Shown here piece by piece: positions 6,062 to 23,028 of a stretch of DNA of 24,561 nucleotides. The translations under genes were made by a program, and so were the position numbers. The first letter of the stretch is position 1; each line of letters begins with the position of its first letter. The stretch covers positions 1 to 24,561 of the IMG/VR virus record IMGVR_UViG_3300030116_005043; one strand, given 5' to 3'. Source of the DNA: a virus. The notes below the pieces were generated by a model. It worked only from the letters and a program-made list of their open reading frames with translations, was not told the origin of the DNA and ran no database searches.

Positions 6062-6337
6062 ATGACAAAAAAAACAGTCTTAGCTCGGGAGTTAATAGCC
6101 AGAATAGGTGATGGTCAAGGTGCAATTGACTTTACGAGTGGAATTAAAACAGTATCTGCTGAATTGCAGCTAAATGCAAGTCAGGTATATAGATGGACAT
6201 ACCCTAAAGGTAAAAGAGGCAATACAGGTGGTATTCCATGCGAATATCTAAGTAGGCTAGTGATATGGGCTGACGAGATTCACCAAACTACATTGTACCA
6301 CGACTCTGATTATATATGGGAGATGATAGATGGGTAA
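6062..6337 (+). CDS. Small HTH regulator (Cro/CI-like)
   Basis: The 91-aa protein contains a helix-turn-helix: VSAELQLNASQVYRWTYPKG (about residues 31-50) is a typical recognition unit, followed by GGIPCEYLSRLVIWADE, the stabilising helix seen in small Cro- or YdaS-like repressors. It is the first gene to the right of a divergent promoter region with palindromes, the classic place for a phage switch protein. It probably represses the leftward or its own promoter. GGGAG lies 10 nt before the ATG. No dimerisation or protease-cleavage domain is present, so it is not a full CI-type repressor. Confidence 0.72.
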   Translation: MTKKTVLARELIARIGDGQGAIDFTSGIKTVSAELQLNASQVYRWTYPKGKRGNTGGIPCEYLSRLVIWADEIHQTTLYHDSDYIWEMIDG

Positions 6338-6884
6338 GATGCAACGAAATAAAGGGTCAAGGGTCGAAAGAGAAATGGTTGAACTATTCCATGCACATAA
6401 AATTCAGGCAGAAAAAGTGCCATTATCTGGTGCTATGCAAGGTTTTCCAGGTGACATAAACGTATATGCTAGTGACCTACATTTAGTTTGCGAAGTTAAG
6501 TCAAGAGCCAAAAGTTTGTGGAAAACACTTGTTAATTGGCTATCAGGCTCAGATATTTTAATCTTAAAAGCAAACAGGCAAGACCCTTATGTATTTATGC
6601 CTATGCGTGTTTTTATTGAACTTGTGAAAAGCAATCAAGCACTCAATGTTAAGCAACTAGAAATTGTCAGAGATATTTTTGATTATTGTGAAAAGAATTA
6701 CAAACAAAGTAGAGAAGATATAATATCTCAAAAAAGGTCAGATGACTTAAACATTTGCAGAAAAATTATAATTAAATTACTTAACCATGAAAACTTTACA
6801 TCTCACCAGATTGGTAATGTGCTTAATCGAGATCATTCAGCCATAATAAAAGCATTAGGAAAGATAAGAAATGACCAAAATTAG
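6330..6884 (+). CDS. PD-(D/E)XK resolvase-like nuclease fused to DnaA domain IV-like tail
   Basis: Residues 1-95 look like a Holliday-junction resolvase or related PD-(D/E)XK nuclease: RNKGSRVEREMVELFH with Glu14, GFPGDINVY with Asp42, and CEVKSR with Glu55 and Lys57. Residues 137-180 look like DnaA domain IV, the part of the bacterial initiator that reads DnaA boxes. The segment GNVLNRDHSAIIKALGKI (162-179) follows the DnaA signature almost position for position, with Ala where Ser/Thr/Val is usual. No ATPase domain lies between them. The combination suggests a nuclease targeted to DnaA-box-like sites or to the phage origin, or one competing with host DnaA. It overlaps the regulator upstream (8 bp) and the replication gene downstream (14 bp). 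Confidence 0.72.
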   Translation: MGKMQRNKGSRVEREMVELFHAHKIQAEKVPLSGAMQGFPGDINVYASDLHLVCEVKSRAKSLWKTLVNWLSGSDILILKANRQDPYVFMPMRVFIELVKSNQALNVKQLEIVRDIFDYCEKNYKQSREDIISQKRSDDLNICRKIIIKLLNHENFTSHQIGNVLNRDHSAIIKALGKIRNDQN

Positions 6885-7752
6885 ATATGTGAAATTTAAT
6901 CCAGATGAATGGCTAGTCGGTACTTTTGGTCTAAACTGTTCAGAGGTAGGTGTGTATATACAGGCTATTTCATTAATGTATTCTTCTGGTGGTGGAATAT
7001 TGCCAACAGATGAAAGATTAATGAGATCATTAAATTCAAAACCTAACATAATCAGAAAGCATTTATTGTCACTCGTTAGCAAAAATAAACTTGAATTTGA
7101 CGGTAAGTATTTGGTGAATACTCGAGTACTAAACGAAATACAAAGGGTCAATAAACGACTAGCAAACGGAACGCAAACGGAGAGTAAACGGAAAGTAAAA
7201 GATAGTGAAAATGAATTAAATCAATCACTTACCAATTTACAATCAATAGACAATAACACTAATCACAATACAAAAACTAACAATACAAAGAAAAGTGTTA
7301 AAAAGAAGAAAATTTTAAGGCAGGTTTTAGATAAGGATATTGAAGATAACTTCGGTACAATTTGGAAACTTTGGAGAAAAAAAACAGGTAAGAGTGTCTC
7401 ATTGTTAGCTTATAGAAAATGTTTACAAAAAAGCTCGCATGATGTAATCCTCAATGGAGTTAATCAATATAATTTTCAAAATGCTGAAACTGAGCAAAAA
7501 TATATACTGATGCTATCAACTTTCTTAAACCAGGAAAGGTATAATGATTATGATTACCCCCCTGTTAGCGATAAAAAACCAATCAAAAAAATGTGTGAAT
7601 GGGAGTATAGAATTTCATGGTTTTCAAGAAAAGGGTATTGGTCAAGTAATTGGGGAAGTAAGCCTACATCTGACAAATGTGCAGCTCCAAAGGATATTTT
7701 AGAAAAATATGGCTATACAAAAAGCAATCCAAGTACAGAAAAATCGAAGTAA
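6871..7752 (+). CDS. Replication protein with DUF1376-type winged-helix N-terminus
   Basis: Residues 1-95 match the DUF1376/phage replication O-type pattern: KFNPDEWLVGTFGLNCSEVG, QAISLMYSSGGGILPTD, then KHLLSLVSKNKLEFDGKYL and NTRVLNEI, a winged-helix DNA-binding unit. A low-complexity Asn/Lys/Thr-rich linker covers about 98-150. The C-terminal part (FGTIWKLWRKKTGKS..., YILMLSTFLNQERYND) resembles the helicase-loader-type tail of such proteins. It probably binds the phage origin and recruits host replication proteins. It overlaps the preceding gene by 14 bp. No helicase or primase is in the window. Confidence 0.75.
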   Translation: MTKIRYVKFNPDEWLVGTFGLNCSEVGVYIQAISLMYSSGGGILPTDERLMRSLNSKPNIIRKHLLSLVSKNKLEFDGKYLVNTRVLNEIQRVNKRLANGTQTESKRKVKDSENELNQSLTNLQSIDNNTNHNTKTNNTKKSVKKKKILRQVLDKDIEDNFGTIWKLWRKKTGKSVSLLAYRKCLQKSSHDVILNGVNQYNFQNAETEQKYILMLSTFLNQERYNDYDYPPVSDKKPIKKMCEWEYRISWFSRKGYWSSNWGSKPTSDKCAAPKDILEKYGYTKSNPSTEKSK

Positions 7753-11267: not shown

Positions 11268-11512
11268 TAGTTTTCCCCTAAAAATTTGATGTAATTACTC
11301 ATAGAGGCTGACCATTGACGGTTGCCTTTTTTATTGAGTGCAAAGTTATCTGATAGCCATAATGCGAGATGTTCTGAAGCCTGATCAGGTGATGTTGCTA
11401 TATCTAACCCTAAATCTCTGTATACACGTATAACACTGTTTTTATATCTTTTCGCTGAGCTTAATGATAATGGCTTCTTTTTATTTAATAGGTAATTAAC
11501 AAAATTATCCAT
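11267..11512 (-). CDS. Stand-alone recombinase core-binding-like protein, 81 aa
   Basis: The sequence MDNFVNYLLNKKKPLSLSSA then RYKNSVIRVYRDLGLD and WSASMSNYIKFLGEN looks like the SAM-like core-binding domain of tyrosine recombinases, a four-helix DNA-binding unit. The catalytic domain with Arg-His-Arg-Tyr is absent here and not found nearby, so it cannot be an integrase alone. It may be a DNA-binding regulator or a remnant. It is the first gene of the leftward accessory operon, next to the control region, with GAAGGGGTTAAA before its ATG. Confidence 0.6.
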   Translation of the reverse strand: MDNFVNYLLNKKKPLSLSSAKRYKNSVIRVYRDLGLDIATSPDQASEHLALWLSDNFALNKKGNRQWSASMSNYIKFLGEN

Positions 11513-11596: not shown

Positions 11597-11761
11597 GCGG
11601 TTATTTCCCTATTATTCTCTCATTAATGATTATTCATGTATATATAGATAGAATATAATTTTAATTATTATGATTTTTTTCGATTCATAAAAAGTCTTGA
11701 AAAAACCTTTTTTCTCGAAAACCTCTCTAAAAATATTTCAGCGTTAGAATAATAAATAGTC

Positions 11762-11799
11762 AGCTATATAATAAAATTATAACGCTAGCTATATAATAA
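11762..11799. repeat. 25-bp-spaced direct repeat
   Basis: AGCTATATAATAA occurs at 11762-11774 and 11787-11799. The second copy is preceded by GCT, giving GCTAGCTAT. The repeat shares the AGCTAT core with the palindromes to its right. Confidence 0.75.
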
Positions 11800-11804
11800 T
11801 ATTA

Positions 11805-11960
11805 CATAGCAAGCTATGCAGCTGTGACTAATGTTCTTGTTTTGTTCTCGTTATGTTCTTCCAGGAGCGATATGTTCTGGTTTTGTTCACGTTTTGTTCT
11901 CTTTATGTTCCCCTTATGTTCTATAGCAAGCTATGTAATTATATTTCAATAGCAAGCTAT
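11805..11960. repeat. Three copies of palindrome ATAGCAAGCTAT flanking the GTTC array
   Basis: Exact copies lie at 11806-11817, 11923-11934 and 11949-11960. Each is ATAGC-AA-GCTAT, and the first extends to CATAGC-AA-GCTATG. The first is left and the others right of the GTTC array; a fourth exact copy is inside a late gene at 20619-20630. They look like protein-binding sites. Confidence 0.8.
11832..11927. promoter_or_regulatory. Array of eight 11-bp repeats with GTTC-N7-GTTC spacing (SOS-box-like or iterons)
   Basis: TGTTC starts at 11832, 11843, 11854, 11873, 11884, 11895, 11906 and 11917: steps of exactly 11 bp except one of 19. The consensus is TGTTCTCGTTW. Adjacent copies form six overlapping GTTC-N7-GTTC sites, which is the LexA box known for Alphaproteobacteria. 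An 11-bp period puts all copies on one face of the helix. Either LexA-type control or origin iterons would fit. Confidence 0.85.
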
Positions 11961-12062
11961 ATAGCAGCACCCCCCACCACCCAAATAATTTTATGGCGGT
12001 CTATAATATGGTACTTAGATCACCCATCCAAAAATATCCCAATAATCTCTCAAAGTATTTTC

Positions 12063-12141: not shown

Positions 12142-12184
12142 TTCCTTCGTGTAGAGAAACTCATCCCTTCTCTACACATAGGAA
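12142..12184 (+). other. Strong hairpin in the late-operon leader
   Basis: GTGTAGAGAA (12149-12158) and TTCTCTACAC (12168-12177) are perfect complements around a 9-nt loop. After a symmetric 3/3 internal loop the stem continues with TTCC/GGAA. It ends 10 bp before the late operon's first ATG and has no T-run, so it is not a standard terminator. It could control translation or be a processing or antitermination site. Confidence 0.65.
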
Positions 12185-14378: not shown

Positions 14379-15283
14379 CACTTGAAACCCTTGCTAAAAC
14401 CAATTTAAAGGAGACAAGTTTACAGAAAAAAGGTCAGGGAAGGCTTTTATTCTGGGAAATGGTTGAAAGAACACGAAAGGTTATGAAACGTAACCTTCCT
14501 GATATTTTTGAGTATCAAAACACAGGAAAAGGAACACTTTTGATTTGCGGAGGTGGTCCGAGTTTAGCAGACGAGTTAAAAACTATTCGTAAACTGTCTA
14601 AAAAGGCAAAAATACTAGCGTGTAACAAAACACACGATTATTTGATGGGTCGTAAGATAAAACCTGACTATGCTTGCCTTTTAGACCCTAAAGAATGGGT
14701 TAAAGATTATGTTCAGAACCCCCATAGAAAGGGCAAATATCTGGTGGCAGGTCAATGTCATCCGAAGGTATTCGATAATCTCAAAGGCTCGGAGGTTATA
14801 CTCTGGCACGCAGGAGTTGATTACTTTGGTGAAGAATACCCAAGTAAAATTCTCTATGAGGAGTTTCGTAACAGGGCTTGGAAAGTTGTTCCTGGGCCTA
14901 CTACAGTTGGCTTGCGGTCTGTTCTCGTGGGTTATTTGCTTGGTTATAGGGATTTTAGGCTCTTTGGTTTTGACAGTTCTCTCAGGGAGGACAAGGCTCA
15001 TGCTTATAGTAAACCAAAACCCCCTGATGCTAGAGAAGGAGAGGTAGCTTTAAAATCCAAGCTCGGCAAGGAAATATTTAAAACAAACAGTCATATGGCA
15101 AAACAATGTCTTGATTTTGAGGCATTATTAGAAAAAATCGGAGAATTAATACAAATGAAAGCATTTGACCCAATAAATATACAGGTTTATGGCGAAGGGT
15201 TACTTCCTAGCTTGGCAGCAGGGTATGGACTTCATGCAGATGCAGAAATGAACCTAAAATGGTGTGGTAAGGAAGCTGCATAA
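14366..15283 (+). CDS. MptE-like (DUF115) protein
   Basis: The 305-aa protein holds the DUF115/6-hydroxymethylpterin diphosphokinase-like core: TLLICGGGPSLADEL (GGGPSL around 62-67), ILACNKTHDYL, PDYACLLDPKEW, and VPGPTTVGLRSVLVGYLLGYRDFRLFGFD. In bacteria relatives occur in flagellin or surface glycosylation loci (motility accessory factors) and in archaeal cofactor synthesis. Beside a glycosyltransferase, a role in transferring or activating a sugar is more likely than pterin chemistry. The ATG has GGAG nine bases upstream and overlaps the glycosyltransferase stop by 13 bp; a TTG five codons earlier is possible but weaker. It joins TerS by TAATG. Confidence 0.78.
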   Translation: MSTVTLETLAKTNLKETSLQKKGQGRLLFWEMVERTRKVMKRNLPDIFEYQNTGKGTLLICGGGPSLADELKTIRKLSKKAKILACNKTHDYLMGRKIKPDYACLLDPKEWVKDYVQNPHRKGKYLVAGQCHPKVFDNLKGSEVILWHAGVDYFGEEYPSKILYEEFRNRAWKVVPGPTTVGLRSVLVGYLLGYRDFRLFGFDSSLREDKAHAYSKPKPPDAREGEVALKSKLGKEIFKTNSHMAKQCLDFEALLEKIGELIQMKAFDPINIQVYGEGLLPSLAAGYGLHADAEMNLKWCGKEAA

Positions 15284-15636
15284 TGCCTATGAAACCATTT
15301 ATACCCACAGAAGCAGATAAAGAAAGAGTTATTGACCTTGCAGGTAAAGGGTTTAGTCCTGAAGAAATAGCACATTATATCTTTAAAGAAGATGGTACAC
15401 CAGTATCAGGTAAAACAATTCTAAGAAAATTCAAAAAAGAATTAGCTTTTGGAAAAATTAAAACAGATAATCTTGTTGCAAGTGTCATGCAGGAAATGGC
15501 AACATCTGGTGAAAACACAAAAGCAACTATGTTTTGGCTTGAATCTCGCAGAAAATGGAACAAAGACAATGATGTTGAGCTTTCTGGTGAAATAACTGTT
15601 AAAATGCCATGCACAATTAAAGAAAAAAATGCTTAA
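15283..15636 (+). CDS. terS: Terminase small subunit
   Basis: The 117-aa protein has an N-terminal HTH of the type seen in phage TerS: VIDLAGKGFSPEEIAHYI then VSGKTILRKFKKELAFGK, followed by a helical oligomerisation part with ATMFWLESRRKWNK near the end. TerS recognises the packaging start on phage DNA and hands it to TerL. Its place directly before TerL, with an 8-bp overlap, agrees. Its own start overlaps the previous stop by 1 bp. Confidence 0.85.
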   Translation: MPMKPFIPTEADKERVIDLAGKGFSPEEIAHYIFKEDGTPVSGKTILRKFKKELAFGKIKTDNLVASVMQEMATSGENTKATMFWLESRRKWNKDNDVELSGEITVKMPCTIKEKNA

Positions 15637-16876
15637 TTTTGAATACACACCGAGAGATGTGTTTAAAACATTCCATGAACGAACAAACAGGTATGGTGTT
15701 ATTGTTGCACACAGGCGAGCAGGTAAAACAGTAGCGTGTGTTAATGATTTAATTATGAACGCCATAACAACTAAGAAAAAAAAGGCACGTTTTAGCTATA
15801 TTGCTCCGCATTACAACATGGCAAAAGATATAGCATGGGATTATTTAAAAAGTTACTCTGCACCTTTTTTAAAACAAGGTGGAAGTGTAAATGAAGCTGA
15901 ATTAAGAATTGACTTTAAAAATGGGTCAAGAATTAGACTTTATGGTGCTGATAATGTCAATAGATTGCGTGGAATTTACCATGATGGCATCATTTTAGAC
16001 GAATATGCAGATATGAACCCTAATATTTGGGAAGTTATACGCCCTGCTTTGTCAGATAGAGAGGGTTGGTGTGTCTGGATAGGAACGCCAAGAGGTCATA
16101 ATGACTTTTATCGTGTTTATGAACAGGCAATAAAGGATGGTTGGTATCATACTGCTTTGAAAGCAAGTAAAACAAACATACTTGATGCAAAAGAGTTAGA
16201 ATCTGCTGAACATGACCTTACTGAAGATCAATATGCACAGGAATACGAGTGTTCCTTTGAAGCAGCTATACAAGGTGCATATTATGGTGAGGAAATGAAA
16301 GAGGCAGAGGATGAAAAACGAATAACTTTCATACATTATGAAACAGACCATGAAGTGCATACAAGTTGGGATTTAGGTATTGGTGACAGCACCGCTATTT
16401 GGTTTATTCAAATGATTGGAAACGAGGTAAGGCTAATAGATTACTATGAGGCTTCTGGTGTTGGACTCGACCATTATGCAAAAGTCTTAGAAAACAAGCC
16501 TTATAAGTATGGAACTCATGTTTTTCCGCATGATGTTGAGGTAAAAGAGCTTGGAACAGGAAAATCACGCCTTGAAGTGCTGAGAAATCTTGGTTTAGAG
16601 CCATTTGTTGCTGAAAAACTTGGTTTAGAAGATGGAATACAGGCAACTCGAAGCATTTTGAACCGTTGTTGGTTTGATAAACAGAAATGTGAGCGTGGAA
16701 TAGAGGCATTAAAGCAATACAGACGTACTTTTGACGATAAAAACAAGGCATTTAAAAACAGACCCTTGCATGACTGGACAAGTCACGCAGCCGATAGTTT
16801 TAGATACATGGCTATAGGCTTAAAACCCAGACGTAAATACAAAGAATTGGAGTTTAACACAGCATGGATAGCGTAA
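15629..16876 (+). CDS. terL: Terminase large subunit
   Basis: ATP-driven DNA packaging motor and nuclease. The Walker A-like motif AHRRAGKT is at 27-34, Walker B IILDEY at 121-126 (Asp124, Glu125), the coupling motif IGTPRG at 151-156. The nuclease domain has WDLGIGDSTAIW (Asp248, Asp253) and SHAADSFRYM with Asp389, together the expected acidic metal-binding set. At 415 aa it is at the compact end for TerL but complete. It overlaps TerS and the following small gene, consistent with one late operon. Confidence 0.95.
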   Translation: MLNFEYTPRDVFKTFHERTNRYGVIVAHRRAGKTVACVNDLIMNAITTKKKKARFSYIAPHYNMAKDIAWDYLKSYSAPFLKQGGSVNEAELRIDFKNGSRIRLYGADNVNRLRGIYHDGIILDEYADMNPNIWEVIRPALSDREGWCVWIGTPRGHNDFYRVYEQAIKDGWYHTALKASKTNILDAKELESAEHDLTEDQYAQEYECSFEAAIQGAYYGEEMKEAEDEKRITFIHYETDHEVHTSWDLGIGDSTAIWFIQMIGNEVRLIDYYEASGVGLDHYAKVLENKPYKYGTHVFPHDVEVKELGTGKSRLEVLRNLGLEPFVAEKLGLEDGIQATRSILNRCWFDKQKCERGIEALKQYRRTFDDKNKAFKNRPLHDWTSHAADSFRYMAIGLKPRRKYKELEFNTAWIA

Positions 16877-17151
16877 AAAAGAAACGAGCAACTAAAACAG
16901 CCGATAAAACACCTACTAAACCTAAAATAAAGCCCGTCAGACGACCAAATTCACTTTCTGAGGGTTTTGCACAGGCAGGACTAAAGTTTAAAAAATTAGG
17001 CACAGATTGGCGGTTTAGTAACGGAGCAACATTAGTACAAGATCAAGAGCCACATTATAATAATATTTCAAAAATTGTTAATTATATGGCTACACATCCT
17101 GGAACAAATGTAACAGTAACTATAGCCTCAATACTTAAAGGTGCAAAATAG
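16864..17151 (+). CDS. Hypothetical basic protein, 95 aa, between TerL and portal
   Basis: A lysine- and proline-rich N-terminus (residues 5-30) precedes a small domain with LKFKKLGTDWRFSNGATLVQ and a C-terminal helix-strand piece. It overlaps TerL by 13 bp and touches the portal start. It may help packaging or portal assembly by position. No family recognised. Confidence 0.7.
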   Translation: MDSVKKKRATKTADKTPTKPKIKPVRRPNSLSEGFAQAGLKFKKLGTDWRFSNGATLVQDQEPHYNNISKIVNYMATHPGTNVTVTIASILKGAK

Positions 17152-19400
17152 TGGCAGAACCCCAAATTTTAGATGAAGAAATGATGCAAGAGACTGTTAT
17201 GGGCGAAGAGCCTATTGCTAAAGTTGAGCAAGTAACAGAAACAATAGAAACTGAAGTAGAACAGGGTATTACTGAAGATCAATTAAAGCAACTTTTATCA
17301 TCTGAAATAGCTGATGCTATGACCTATATACAAGGGTCAGAATTTATAGCAGATGACAGAGAAACAGCCTATGAATACTATCGTGGTGTTATGGATGATT
17401 TACCTGCACCACAAGGCAGGTCAAGAGTTACTGACAGAGCAGTATCAACTTACATAAACATGATGTTGCCGAGCTTACTGCGTGTGTTTACAGCAGGAAA
17501 ATACATAGCTATCTATGAACCTAATAATGAGCAAAATACTAAAATAGCAGAAATTATTACCCATTATGTAAACGAGTGTGTGTTTAGAAAAGATAATCAT
17601 GGTGAAATGATTATAAGAGATTGGGCTTGGAACGCACTTGTAGGTAAAGTTGGTGTTGTTAAAAGCTATTACAATGAAAGCAGTAAGAAAGAAGAAGAAA
17701 CCTATGAAGGTTTAAACGACATGGAGTTTGCTGATATTGTTCAAAGAGTAGAAGCAAATCCAGAACTTGAAATAAAGGCTCATACTGCAACATCTGTTGA
17801 AGGTCCGTCACCTATGGGCGAAGGTATGTTGTCTTTAACAGAACATGATCTTACAGTTGAAAGAACAGTAAACACTAGCACTGTTAAAATAGAAAACATA
17901 GAGTGGGAAGAGTTTGTTATATCAAGAGATGCTCGCAACCTTGAAGATGCTGTTTTAAAATCTCATAGAACGTATTACAGAGCAGGTGATCTTATTGAAA
18001 TGGGCTATGACCCAGATACAGTTGCACGTTTGCCAACCTATACAAACAGAGCATATCAATCAAAAGTATATGATGATTACTACAGAGAAAGAAACAGAGC
18101 AGATAGTCCTGACCCTGCATTAAGAGAAGTGTTAGTTCACGAGGGTATTGTTAAGTGTGATTATGATGGTACAGGGGTAAGAGAGTGGTATTTTGTCTGT
18201 GGTGGTGGTGAAAATGTAGTCGAAGTTCTTGCTATGGAACGCTATGACTGTCAAATTGTATTTTCTGATTTTTGCCCAGAACCTATTCCTAACTTGTTTT
18301 TTGGTCGTTGTCCTGCTGATGCCCTTGTAGAAATACAAAGAGCAAACACTGTTATTACTCGTATGATGCTTGATAGCGGTTATTTATCTATGACTCCCCA
18401 AAGAGAGGTTGTGTTTGACAACTTAGTAAACCCCGAGCAGTTGACCAACCTCTCACCAGGCGCACCAGTTTATGTAACAAGAGCAGGTAGTATTCGTGAA
18501 ATGCAAGTTCCTTTTGTTGGAAACCAAGCTCTTAATATGCTGACTCACTTTGAAACAGAGGCAGAAAAACGCACAGGTGTATCAAAAGCATCTATGGGAT
18601 TAGAACCTGATGTTCTTGCAAACCAGACTGCAACCGCAGCCAACATAGCCTATAGTTCAAGTTTGGGTAAAGTAGAGATGATTGCTCGTATGTGGGCAGA
18701 TGGAGGCATGAGAAAGCTATTTTCTGGTATATTAAAACAACTTATAAAATATCAGGATTTTACTCGTATAATTCGTATGTCAGGTCAGGAAGTTGCTATA
18801 GACCCTCGCCAATGGGAAATGTTTAAAGAAGCAGATGTTAATATTGATACAGGTCTTGGTACAGGCAACAGAGACAGAGATATGGCTATGATTAATGCTA
18901 TTGTTGGTAAGCAGGAAGCTATTATAGGTCAGTTTGGGGTTAATTCACCTCTTGTTGACCTTAATAAATACTCAAGAGCTTTACAGGACATGGCTCAAAC
19001 AGCAGGTATAAAAGACCCTGAACAATACTTTGGTGAAATACCTGTAGGGTATCAACCACCACAAAAACCACCTTCTGCCGAGCAAATGGAAGCACAGCGT
19101 AAACAACAGAAAGATCAACAGGACTTTCAGGTTGACATGATGAATTTACAGTTGAAAGCAAGAGAACTTGCCTTGAAAGAAGCACAGGTTCTTGCAGATA
19201 GTGGCTCACAAATGTCACCTGCTGAAATACAAAAACTACAAATGCAGTATGAAAAAATGTTGTTAGATGCTGAGTTAAAACGTCAGAAAATGGCTCTTGA
19301 TGCCACTAACAAGTTACAAGAACTAGAAGTAGAAGCAAGTTTAGAAAAATATGCAATAGATAAAAAATCACCAAAAGGACAGGGTATTATCCCTGATTAG
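17151..19400 (+). CDS. Portal protein (P22-like)
   Basis: The 749-aa protein forms the ring through which DNA enters the capsid. The layout fits P22-type portals (P22 gp1 is about 725 aa): EYYRGVMDDLPAPQGRS, then YINMMLPSLLRVF, EWEEFVISRDAR and the clip/stem region with FETEAEKRTGVSKASMGL. The C-terminal 110 residues are Gln/Lys/Glu-rich coiled coil (about 635-735), as in barrel-bearing podovirus portals. The GTG start has AAAGGTG upstream and sits on the stop of the preceding gene. Size and neighbours support the call. Confidence 0.9.
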   Translation: MAEPQILDEEMMQETVMGEEPIAKVEQVTETIETEVEQGITEDQLKQLLSSEIADAMTYIQGSEFIADDRETAYEYYRGVMDDLPAPQGRSRVTDRAVSTYINMMLPSLLRVFTAGKYIAIYEPNNEQNTKIAEIITHYVNECVFRKDNHGEMIIRDWAWNALVGKVGVVKSYYNESSKKEEETYEGLNDMEFADIVQRVEANPELEIKAHTATSVEGPSPMGEGMLSLTEHDLTVERTVNTSTVKIENIEWEEFVISRDARNLEDAVLKSHRTYYRAGDLIEMGYDPDTVARLPTYTNRAYQSKVYDDYYRERNRADSPDPALREVLVHEGIVKCDYDGTGVREWYFVCGGGENVVEVLAMERYDCQIVFSDFCPEPIPNLFFGRCPADALVEIQRANTVITRMMLDSGYLSMTPQREVVFDNLVNPEQLTNLSPGAPVYVTRAGSIREMQVPFVGNQALNMLTHFETEAEKRTGVSKASMGLEPDVLANQTATAANIAYSSSLGKVEMIARMWADGGMRKLFSGILKQLIKYQDFTRIIRMSGQEVAIDPRQWEMFKEADVNIDTGLGTGNRDRDMAMINAIVGKQEAIIGQFGVNSPLVDLNKYSRALQDMAQTAGIKDPEQYFGEIPVGYQPPQKPPSAEQMEAQRKQQKDQQDFQVDMMNLQLKARELALKEAQVLADSGSQMSPAEIQKLQMQYEKMLLDAELKRQKMALDATNKLQELEVEASLEKYAIDKKSPKGQGIIPD

Positions 19401-22032: not shown

Positions 22033-23028
22033 ATGGCTATGACAACAAATGCCCAAAATACCTTCGCACAGATAGGTATAAGGGAGGACCTTGCCGATAT
22101 TGTCTATCGCATAGACCCAGAAGAGACCCCATTTCAGAGTAATATTTCTACCGCAGGTAGAGCTACTAATCGTTATGTAGAGTGGCAAATTCAAACTCTT
22201 GCTTCACCAAGCACAAGTAACTTCCAACTTGAAGGTGATGAGCCTACACCAACTGCTGCTACAGCTCGTAGTCGTATTGGTAACAGAGTTGCTATTTCTT
22301 TCAAAACATTTGCTGTAACAACAACTGCTAATGCTGTTGATGTCGCAGGAATTGATGACGAACTTGACGAACAAAGACTACTTCGTGGTTTGGAACTCAA
22401 ACGTGATATGGAAGTAATTCTGTTAAACAACAATGCACAAACAGTCGGTGGCACTCAAACTGTTACCGAGTGTGCAGGTTTACCATCATTTATCACTAAT
22501 ACTGATAATACAGGCACAGAAAGATTTACTGCTGCAACAGGTGATGGAACTGATGCTTGGAATTTTGCTAATTCCACAACAAGAGCATTAACACTTACTA
22601 TTCTAAATGGTGCTTTGAAAGAAGCCTATGTAGATGGTGGTGCGCCTGATTTCATTATGCTTTCACCTGACCAAAAAATTAAGTTTTCTGGTCTTGCATT
22701 AGCATCTTCTATTAGTGGAGCTGCTCAAGTGCGTCAAAGCATCAGTAAAGATGAAGCTGCAACTATTGTTGGTTCTGTAGAAGGTTGGCTATCGGACTTT
22801 GGTTCTATTGCTGTAACCGTCAACAGACAAATGGCAAGTGATACATCTTTCTTAGATATTACTGCTTTCATGGTTGATAGTAAGTATGCAGAAGTAGCAT
22901 TTCTTGAGCCAATGCAAAACAGACCTTTGGGAACAACAGGTTTGGCAGATCGAGAAATGATTTATGCTAGTTACACACTTAAAATTGGTGCGCCTAAAGC
23001 CCATGCTTTTGTAAGTAATTTATCGTAA
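22033..23028 (+). CDS. Major capsid protein (SU10/DUF5309-like)
   Basis: The 331-aa protein begins MAMTTNAQNTFAQIGIREDL and continues ADIVYRIDPEETPFQSNI, ATNRYVEWQIQTLASPS and ELDEQRLLRGLELKRDME, the pattern of DUF5309/SU10-type HK97-fold coat proteins. PDFIMLSPDQKIKFSGLAL and LEPMQNRPLGTTGLADREM complete the fold. AGGAG lies eight bases before the ATG. It comes after the scaffold and is followed by a strong terminator. Confidence 0.9.
   Translation: MAMTTNAQNTFAQIGIREDLADIVYRIDPEETPFQSNISTAGRATNRYVEWQIQTLASPSTSNFQLEGDEPTPTAATARSRIGNRVAISFKTFAVTTTANAVDVAGIDDELDEQRLLRGLELKRDMEVILLNNNAQTVGGTQTVTECAGLPSFITNTDNTGTERFTAATGDGTDAWNFANSTTRALTLTILNGALKEAYVDGGAPDFIMLSPDQKIKFSGLALASSISGAAQVRQSISKDEAATIVGSVEGWLSDFGSIAVTVNRQMASDTSFLDITAFMVDSKYAEVAFLEPMQNRPLGTTGLADREMIYASYTLKIGAPKAHAFVSNLS

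Follow-up and report, generated by a model that had tools for sequence, protein, structure and literature searches.

The window analyzed here, a 24,561-nt viral record from IMG/VR, carries an array of eight TGTTC half-sites between two divergent operons. This array is probably an operator for the LexA of the host, of the alphaproteobacterial GTTC-N7-GTTC type, arranged in two blocks of three and five in-phase half-sites. The predicted LexA array probably gates the divergent early and late operons. From sequence comparisons we infer LexA binding, repression, release by the SOS response, and an alphaproteobacterial host.

A direct scan placed the TGTTC copies at positions 11832, 11843, 11854, 11873, 11884, 11895, 11906, and 11917, with successive steps of 11, 11, 19, 11, 11, 11, and 11 bp, and these eight copies form six exact GTTC-N7-GTTC sites (Table 1). 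The preliminary description had reported the same copy number, the same six sites, and the 19-bp break after the third copy, all of which were reproduced in our recount; of its span of 11832–11927, the start was correct, while the last TGTTC copy already finishes at 11921. All six exact sites in the window, searched on both strands, fall within the array and none elsewhere. As a control, 300 first-order Markov shuffles of the window gave 0.42 GTTC-N7-GTTC pairs on average, with a maximum of three, and never produced a TGTTC run of more than two copies. When one mismatch was allowed, nine further dispersed sites appeared, all more than 2 kb from the array, which corresponds to the chance level. 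The RNA of the array was predicted to fold no better than shuffled sequences (z = +1.56), and Rfam searches of it returned no matches. A micro-ORF noticed by eye, which starts within the array at the 19-bp break (AGGAG-N4-ATG), was rejected, as its counterpart in the relative L010 ends at a stop after two codons.

Table 1. Features of the array region and of the genes discussed in the text (window coordinates).
Feature	Coordinates	Strand	Remarks
91-aa protein, candidate phage regulator	6062..6337	+	HTH-like by eye; no family matches
Primosomal / replication-initiator-like protein	6871..7752	+	phrog_9327, phrog_270, DUF1376
First ORF of leftward operon, 81 aa	11267..11512	-	no family
Left flank, AT-rich, TAGCAAGCTA-type dyads at ~25-bp steps	11757..11816		exact copy 11807-11816; degenerate copies near 11757 and 11782
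Array block 1: three TGTTC half-sites at 11-bp steps, two overlapping GTTC-N7-GTTC boxes	11832..11858	+	
Array break, 19-bp step	11859..11872	+	also in relative L010
Array block 2: five TGTTC half-sites at 11-bp steps, four overlapping GTTC-N7-GTTC boxes	11873..11921	+	
Right flank, two exact TAGCAAGCTA dyads	11924..11959		copies 11924-11933 and 11950-11959
ACCCCCCACCACCCAAATAATTTTATGGCGGT block	11969..12010	+	best-conserved stretch of the gap in all six aligned sequences; GGGGGT in the others
First ORF of rightward late operon, 727 aa	12195..14378	+	no Pfam or PHROG matches; glycosyltransferase-like by eye only
Small terminase subunit	15283..15636	+	weak phrog_309 match
Large terminase subunit	15629..16876	+	
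Portal protein	17151..19400	+	phrog_1216
Major capsid protein	22033..23028	+	phrog_1328

Two operons border the 682-bp gap that contains the array: one of small genes runs leftward, its first ORF ending at 11512, and one of late genes runs rightward from 12195, 274 bp from the array. Gene direction and GC skew both switch in the array region, and the flank is AT-rich. The phage is podovirus-like and encodes Erf, a YqaJ-type exonuclease, NinB, a PDDEXK-DnaA domain IV fusion, a primosomal protein, terminase, portal, and capsid. The fusion is located at 6330–6884; in the Sulfitobacter phage phiGT1, the DnaA domain IV protein stands alone. Residues 97–207 of the primosomal protein (6871–7752) weakly match Saf/Nte pilins (Pfam 0.0014; PDB 5y9h 4.7e-6), which is perhaps a compositional artefact.

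Other elements were also recognized in the gap. Three of the four exact TAGCAAGCTA dyads of the window flank the array; such dyads are present in the array-less relative L006 and absent beside the array of G311. The conserved C/G-rich block 3′ of the array, which reads ACCCCCC...GGGGGT and contains ACCCCCCACCACCCAAATAATTTTATGGCGGT, is possibly a terminator or another cis site. Directly before the late ORF, at 12142–12184, an inverted repeat, TTCCTTCGTGTAGAGAA / TTCTCTACACATAGGAA, is found in most relatives and may form a leader hairpin. No sigma-70 promoters were recognized in the gap, where matches did not exceed the chance level.

The GTTC-N7-GTTC motif is the LexA box of Alphaproteobacteria (PMC8565304, PMC3323433; for Caulobacter, PMC12907096). 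In our set of alphaproteobacterial genomes, it was found in the 300 bp preceding recA in 14 of 18 genomes and in the 300 bp preceding lexA in 20 of 25. We built a scoring matrix from 36 of these host recA/lexA boxes. The six phage boxes reached a mean of 4.8 bits, compared with 3.3 bits for the host boxes themselves when left out one at a time and with -3.4 bits for isolated pairs in viral loci, and random six-box means never exceeded 0.28. Since the six phage boxes in part duplicate one another, these scores are not independent and weigh less than six separate matches would. Beyond the direct repeat itself, the phage boxes resemble genuine recA/lexA boxes in their spacer and flanking bases.

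We searched GTDB genomes for runs of three TGTTC half-sites spaced in 11-bp phase and detected at least 80 loci. Among the 80 listed, 37 were alphaproteobacterial by title, and this share was higher for loci with diverged units (31/50 of the matches listed) than for those with identical units (6/30). In L208, an overlapping triple box lies 14 bp before recA, confirmed by family, and includes the 17-mer TGTTCTTGTTTTGTTCT, which also occurs at the first box of the window; in L266, a triple box lies 14 bp before imuA, a gene named by eye from its protein sequence. The window boxes have the same half-site, spacing, and T-rich surroundings as the SOS boxes of recA, lexA, and imuA. All 37 alphaproteobacterial loci among the matches listed, however, have three half-sites in phase and no more, so that these host loci do not show the dense arrangement of the phage: the window has eight half-sites in two blocks of overlapping, in-phase sites within a phage genome, where the LexA role is a prediction.

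We then examined relatives retrieved through the 727-aa ORF. L010 has all eight half-sites. In L007, L008, L009, and L015 the sequence of the gap differs, yet three to five forward boxes and one inverted GAAC-N7-GAAC box are present. Every exact GTTC-N7-GTTC site of G308, G311, and G306 lies in this same gap (6/6, 5/5, and 4/4, respectively); in the relatives of 35,458, 35,028, and 32,648 bases, all exact boxes (six, five, and four) are located there. The array geometry appears to be under selection, as judged from its maintenance while the sequence of the gap turned over. L006, by contrast, has lost the array and retains the dyads and the C/G-rich block, which means that the array is not indispensable. 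Conservation of the 11-bp phase, proposed in the preliminary description as a check, was accordingly found despite the sequence turnover, with L006 as the exception. The suggestion that the 19-bp break separates two binding blocks is only weakly supported: the break recurs in L010, and other relatives have steps of 14, 20, and 30 bp. No direct DNA relatives of the window were found among GenBank phages.

Similar arrays were detected in other viruses. IMG/VR contained 46 loci, representing 34 distinct sequences, with noncoding triple arrays of diverged units at 11-bp steps; controls gave no loci at 10-bp steps, four at 12-bp steps, and one for the permuted word TCTTG. In independent phages and in both orientations, the units were diverged outside TGTTC and TTW, which were both fixed. 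The densest records held 13–24 exact sites each, counting both orientations, and around dense arrays successive spacings of GAAC, the orientation for which the loci had not been selected, were mostly 11 bp (34 cases, against three for the next most common value). Face-to-face arrangements, in which forward GTTC sites are followed by inverted GAAC sites, were seen in L152 (5563–5908) and L150 (2709–3090, reverse strand), with 9 and 15 exact sites, respectively.

The commonest neighbor of the arrays was the large terminase, with four families in 28 of the 48 groups of array-bearing loci, and it was transcribed away from the array in 26 of these 28 phage groups. Recurrent neighbors were limited to structural or packaging proteins, terminases and portals among them, a protein judged GroES-like by eye, and two unknown families; no non-structural DNA-binding family common to the surroundings of the arrays was identified in the 48 groups. 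Peptidase_S24 (LexA/CI) was detected in none of 24 array-bearing records, several of them fragments, which included the window, G306, G308, and G311; an integrase was found in one of the 24. As expected for phages controlled by host LexA, these 24 records, some of them fragmentary, showed no self-cleaving repressor of their own. Searches of 22 cultivated or named phages, many with alphaproteobacterial hosts, revealed no dense arrays, and apart from HTVC106P only scattered single sites; the cultivated phages of Sinorhizobium, Rhizobium, Sulfitobacter, Roseobacter, Caulobacter, and Pelagibacter had no arrays, nor did prophage-like portal loci in seven alphaproteobacterial genomes. In the Pelagibacter phage HTVC106P, a single perfect box, TGTTCTTGTTTTGTTCT, is located directly upstream of the terminase operon. 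No LexA arrays in phages were found in the literature searched.

An alphaproteobacterial host for the window phage is suggested by two observations: portal homologues occurred in 7 of 142 alphaproteobacterial genomes and in 0 of 143 genomes of Gammaproteobacteria (the class of Shewanella) in an even draw, and the nearest named phages by portal (~33% identity), as far as the top-listed ones have a named host, infect mostly Alphaproteobacteria. The terminases of some other array-bearing contigs are nearest to those of Vibrio or Pseudomonas phages, and therefore not every array need reside in an alphaproteobacterial phage. As for the LexA reading put forward in the preliminary description, it is favored by the geometry and sequence of the boxes, the host triples at recA and imuA, the 11-bp phase, and the absence of an S24 gene, and on these comparative grounds it is partly supported, with the new kind of switch envisaged there still a prediction.

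In the mechanism we propose, LexA dimers of the host would bind next to one another along a single DNA face between the divergent operons. They would hold down the late operon from 12195 (two ORFs of unknown function, terminase, portal, and capsid) and perhaps the leftward operon too. RecA-driven cleavage would then lower LexA and release the operons, the trigger being either prior damage or SOS induced by the infection. Infection of SAR11 cells by the pelagiphage HTVC027P raises host recA, lexA, umuD, and umuC transcripts (PMC12753301), and therefore the SOS response can be active in infected cells; no array is present in HTVC027P. The 274 bp between the array and the late ORF count against an operator, because this distance is farther than usual.

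CTX-phi and GIL01 are cited as phages whose lytic switch is host LexA (PMC3323433, PMC8565304, PMC9437464). The window phage resembles them in that LexA-type sites lie in one of its regulatory regions and that no gene for a cleavable repressor was found in it. The LexA boxes of CTX-phi and GIL01 are of other types and their phage partners are known, whereas the window has a dense array and no integrase was found. The closest precedent in design is provided by the clusters of CtrA sites in phages of Alphaproteobacteria, which are associated with "lytic deferment" and turn over fast between close relatives (PMC9437464); there, too, dense sites for a host regulator occupy one intergenic region of the phage. 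The CtrA box, TTAA-N7-TTAA, shares the 11-bp period, but the sites of the window are GTTC-N7-GTTC. A CtrA-site cluster in the window itself was rejected, since TTAA-N7-TTAA occurs three times against 3.4 expected, which is the chance level.

The array might instead be bound by a phage protein, and natural swaps among relatives bear on this question. The arrays of L007 and L008 are almost identical, yet the homologues of the 6062 HTH-like protein in these two relatives are 36% and 87% identical to that of the window, their small terminases 30% and 100%, and their DnaA-domain proteins 32% and 40%, respectively. Conversely, the window and L008 have an exactly matching small terminase and an HTH allele in common, and their array sequences differ. 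Because L007 and L008 have the array in common and the proteins differ, the HTH protein does not account for the array, and nor does the small terminase. The earlier proposal of a phage repressor copying the LexA site, for which the 6062 protein would be a candidate, is weakened by the failure of array type to track the phage HTH gene. It draws on the presence of a small HTH-like gene at a divergent junction and on the fact that repeated operators are usual for such proteins; the region upstream of the 6062 gene, however, has no such box and no S24 repressor was found, and we consider it very unlikely. We give equally little credence to a cosB- or pac-like site at which the small terminase would bind for packaging. 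Arrays do lie upstream of terminase operons in many phages, and a conserved C/G-rich block adjoins the array, but the small terminase allele does not follow the array, its gene is 3.4 kb away, and a relative without the array (L006) exists. Neutral tandem duplication without function is barely credible: tandem repeats arise easily and L006 lost its array, but fixed TGTTC and TTW in otherwise diverged units, in independent phages and both orientations, argue against it, as do the 10-bp, 12-bp, and permuted-word controls.

The main rival, doubtful in our estimation, is that the 11-bp repeats are replication iterons at which a phage initiator, likeliest the 6871–7752 protein, binds and opens the AT-rich flank at 11600–11810. 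This protein is 77–87% conserved in all array-bearing relatives examined and 30% identical in the array-less L011, and because it is conserved with the array and diverged in L011, the initiator-iteron reading survives the comparison that removed the HTH protein and the small terminase. Tandem repeats at about one helical turn, an AT-rich flank, and the change of gene direction and GC skew are likewise shared with or expected of phage origins, and 11-bp TGTTCACTTGT arrays of TGTTC with a different consensus lie inside long ORFs of other viruses, as initiator-gene origins would. Against this stand the location of the window array, which is neither in nor beside the candidate initiator gene but ~4 kb from it, its loss in L006, and its match to host LexA boxes, which iterons would not need; arrays in other phages adjoin late genes rather than initiator genes, and no non-structural DNA-binding family shared by the 48 phage groups was found beside them. 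The iteron use considered alongside LexA in the preliminary description thus gains from the conservation of the primosomal protein and loses from the placement of the array. Alternatively, the array could be no operator of phage genes but serve to titrate host LexA as a decoy, so that RecA and repair proteins rise to the benefit of phage recombination and replication. The half-sites exceed the need of any regulatory box, other array-bearing phages reach 13–24 sites per record, and a recombination-active state could help a phage that has its own Erf and exonuclease recombination genes. We nevertheless judge titration unlikely, as one array per genome would hold about three non-overlapping dimers until the phage replicates, and consistent placement near late operons would not be required.

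Returning to the predicted LexA operator, we tentatively suggest that a recurrent, mostly non-integrating, and probably convergent class of phages uses dense arrays of overlapping, in-phase LexA half-sites near late operons as an SOS-gated timer, in which late genes would stay shut while LexA is plentiful. If so, LexA cleavage, triggered by prior damage or by the infection itself, would open this LexA counterpart of CtrA-based lytic deferment, and phages would commonly time late infection by reading the DNA-damage state of the host. A few cases in which phages use the LexA of the host are known. Dense arrays near late genes occur in some thirty or more distinct sequences of uncultivated phages, most without a recognizable integrase and none with a cleavable repressor, and the array offers a simple searchable sequence signature.

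Two other kinds of array were recorded in these searches. The coding 11-bp TGTTCACTTGT arrays form a separate, common class inside long ORFs (L020, L022, L030, L057, and many others); they probably represent initiator-gene origins and were set aside as another kind. Six Bacteroidota genomes (L209, L221, L229, L237, L242, and L248) contain 11-bp arrays of TGTTCGGGTTT or TGTTCGGATTT, with up to 11 copies.
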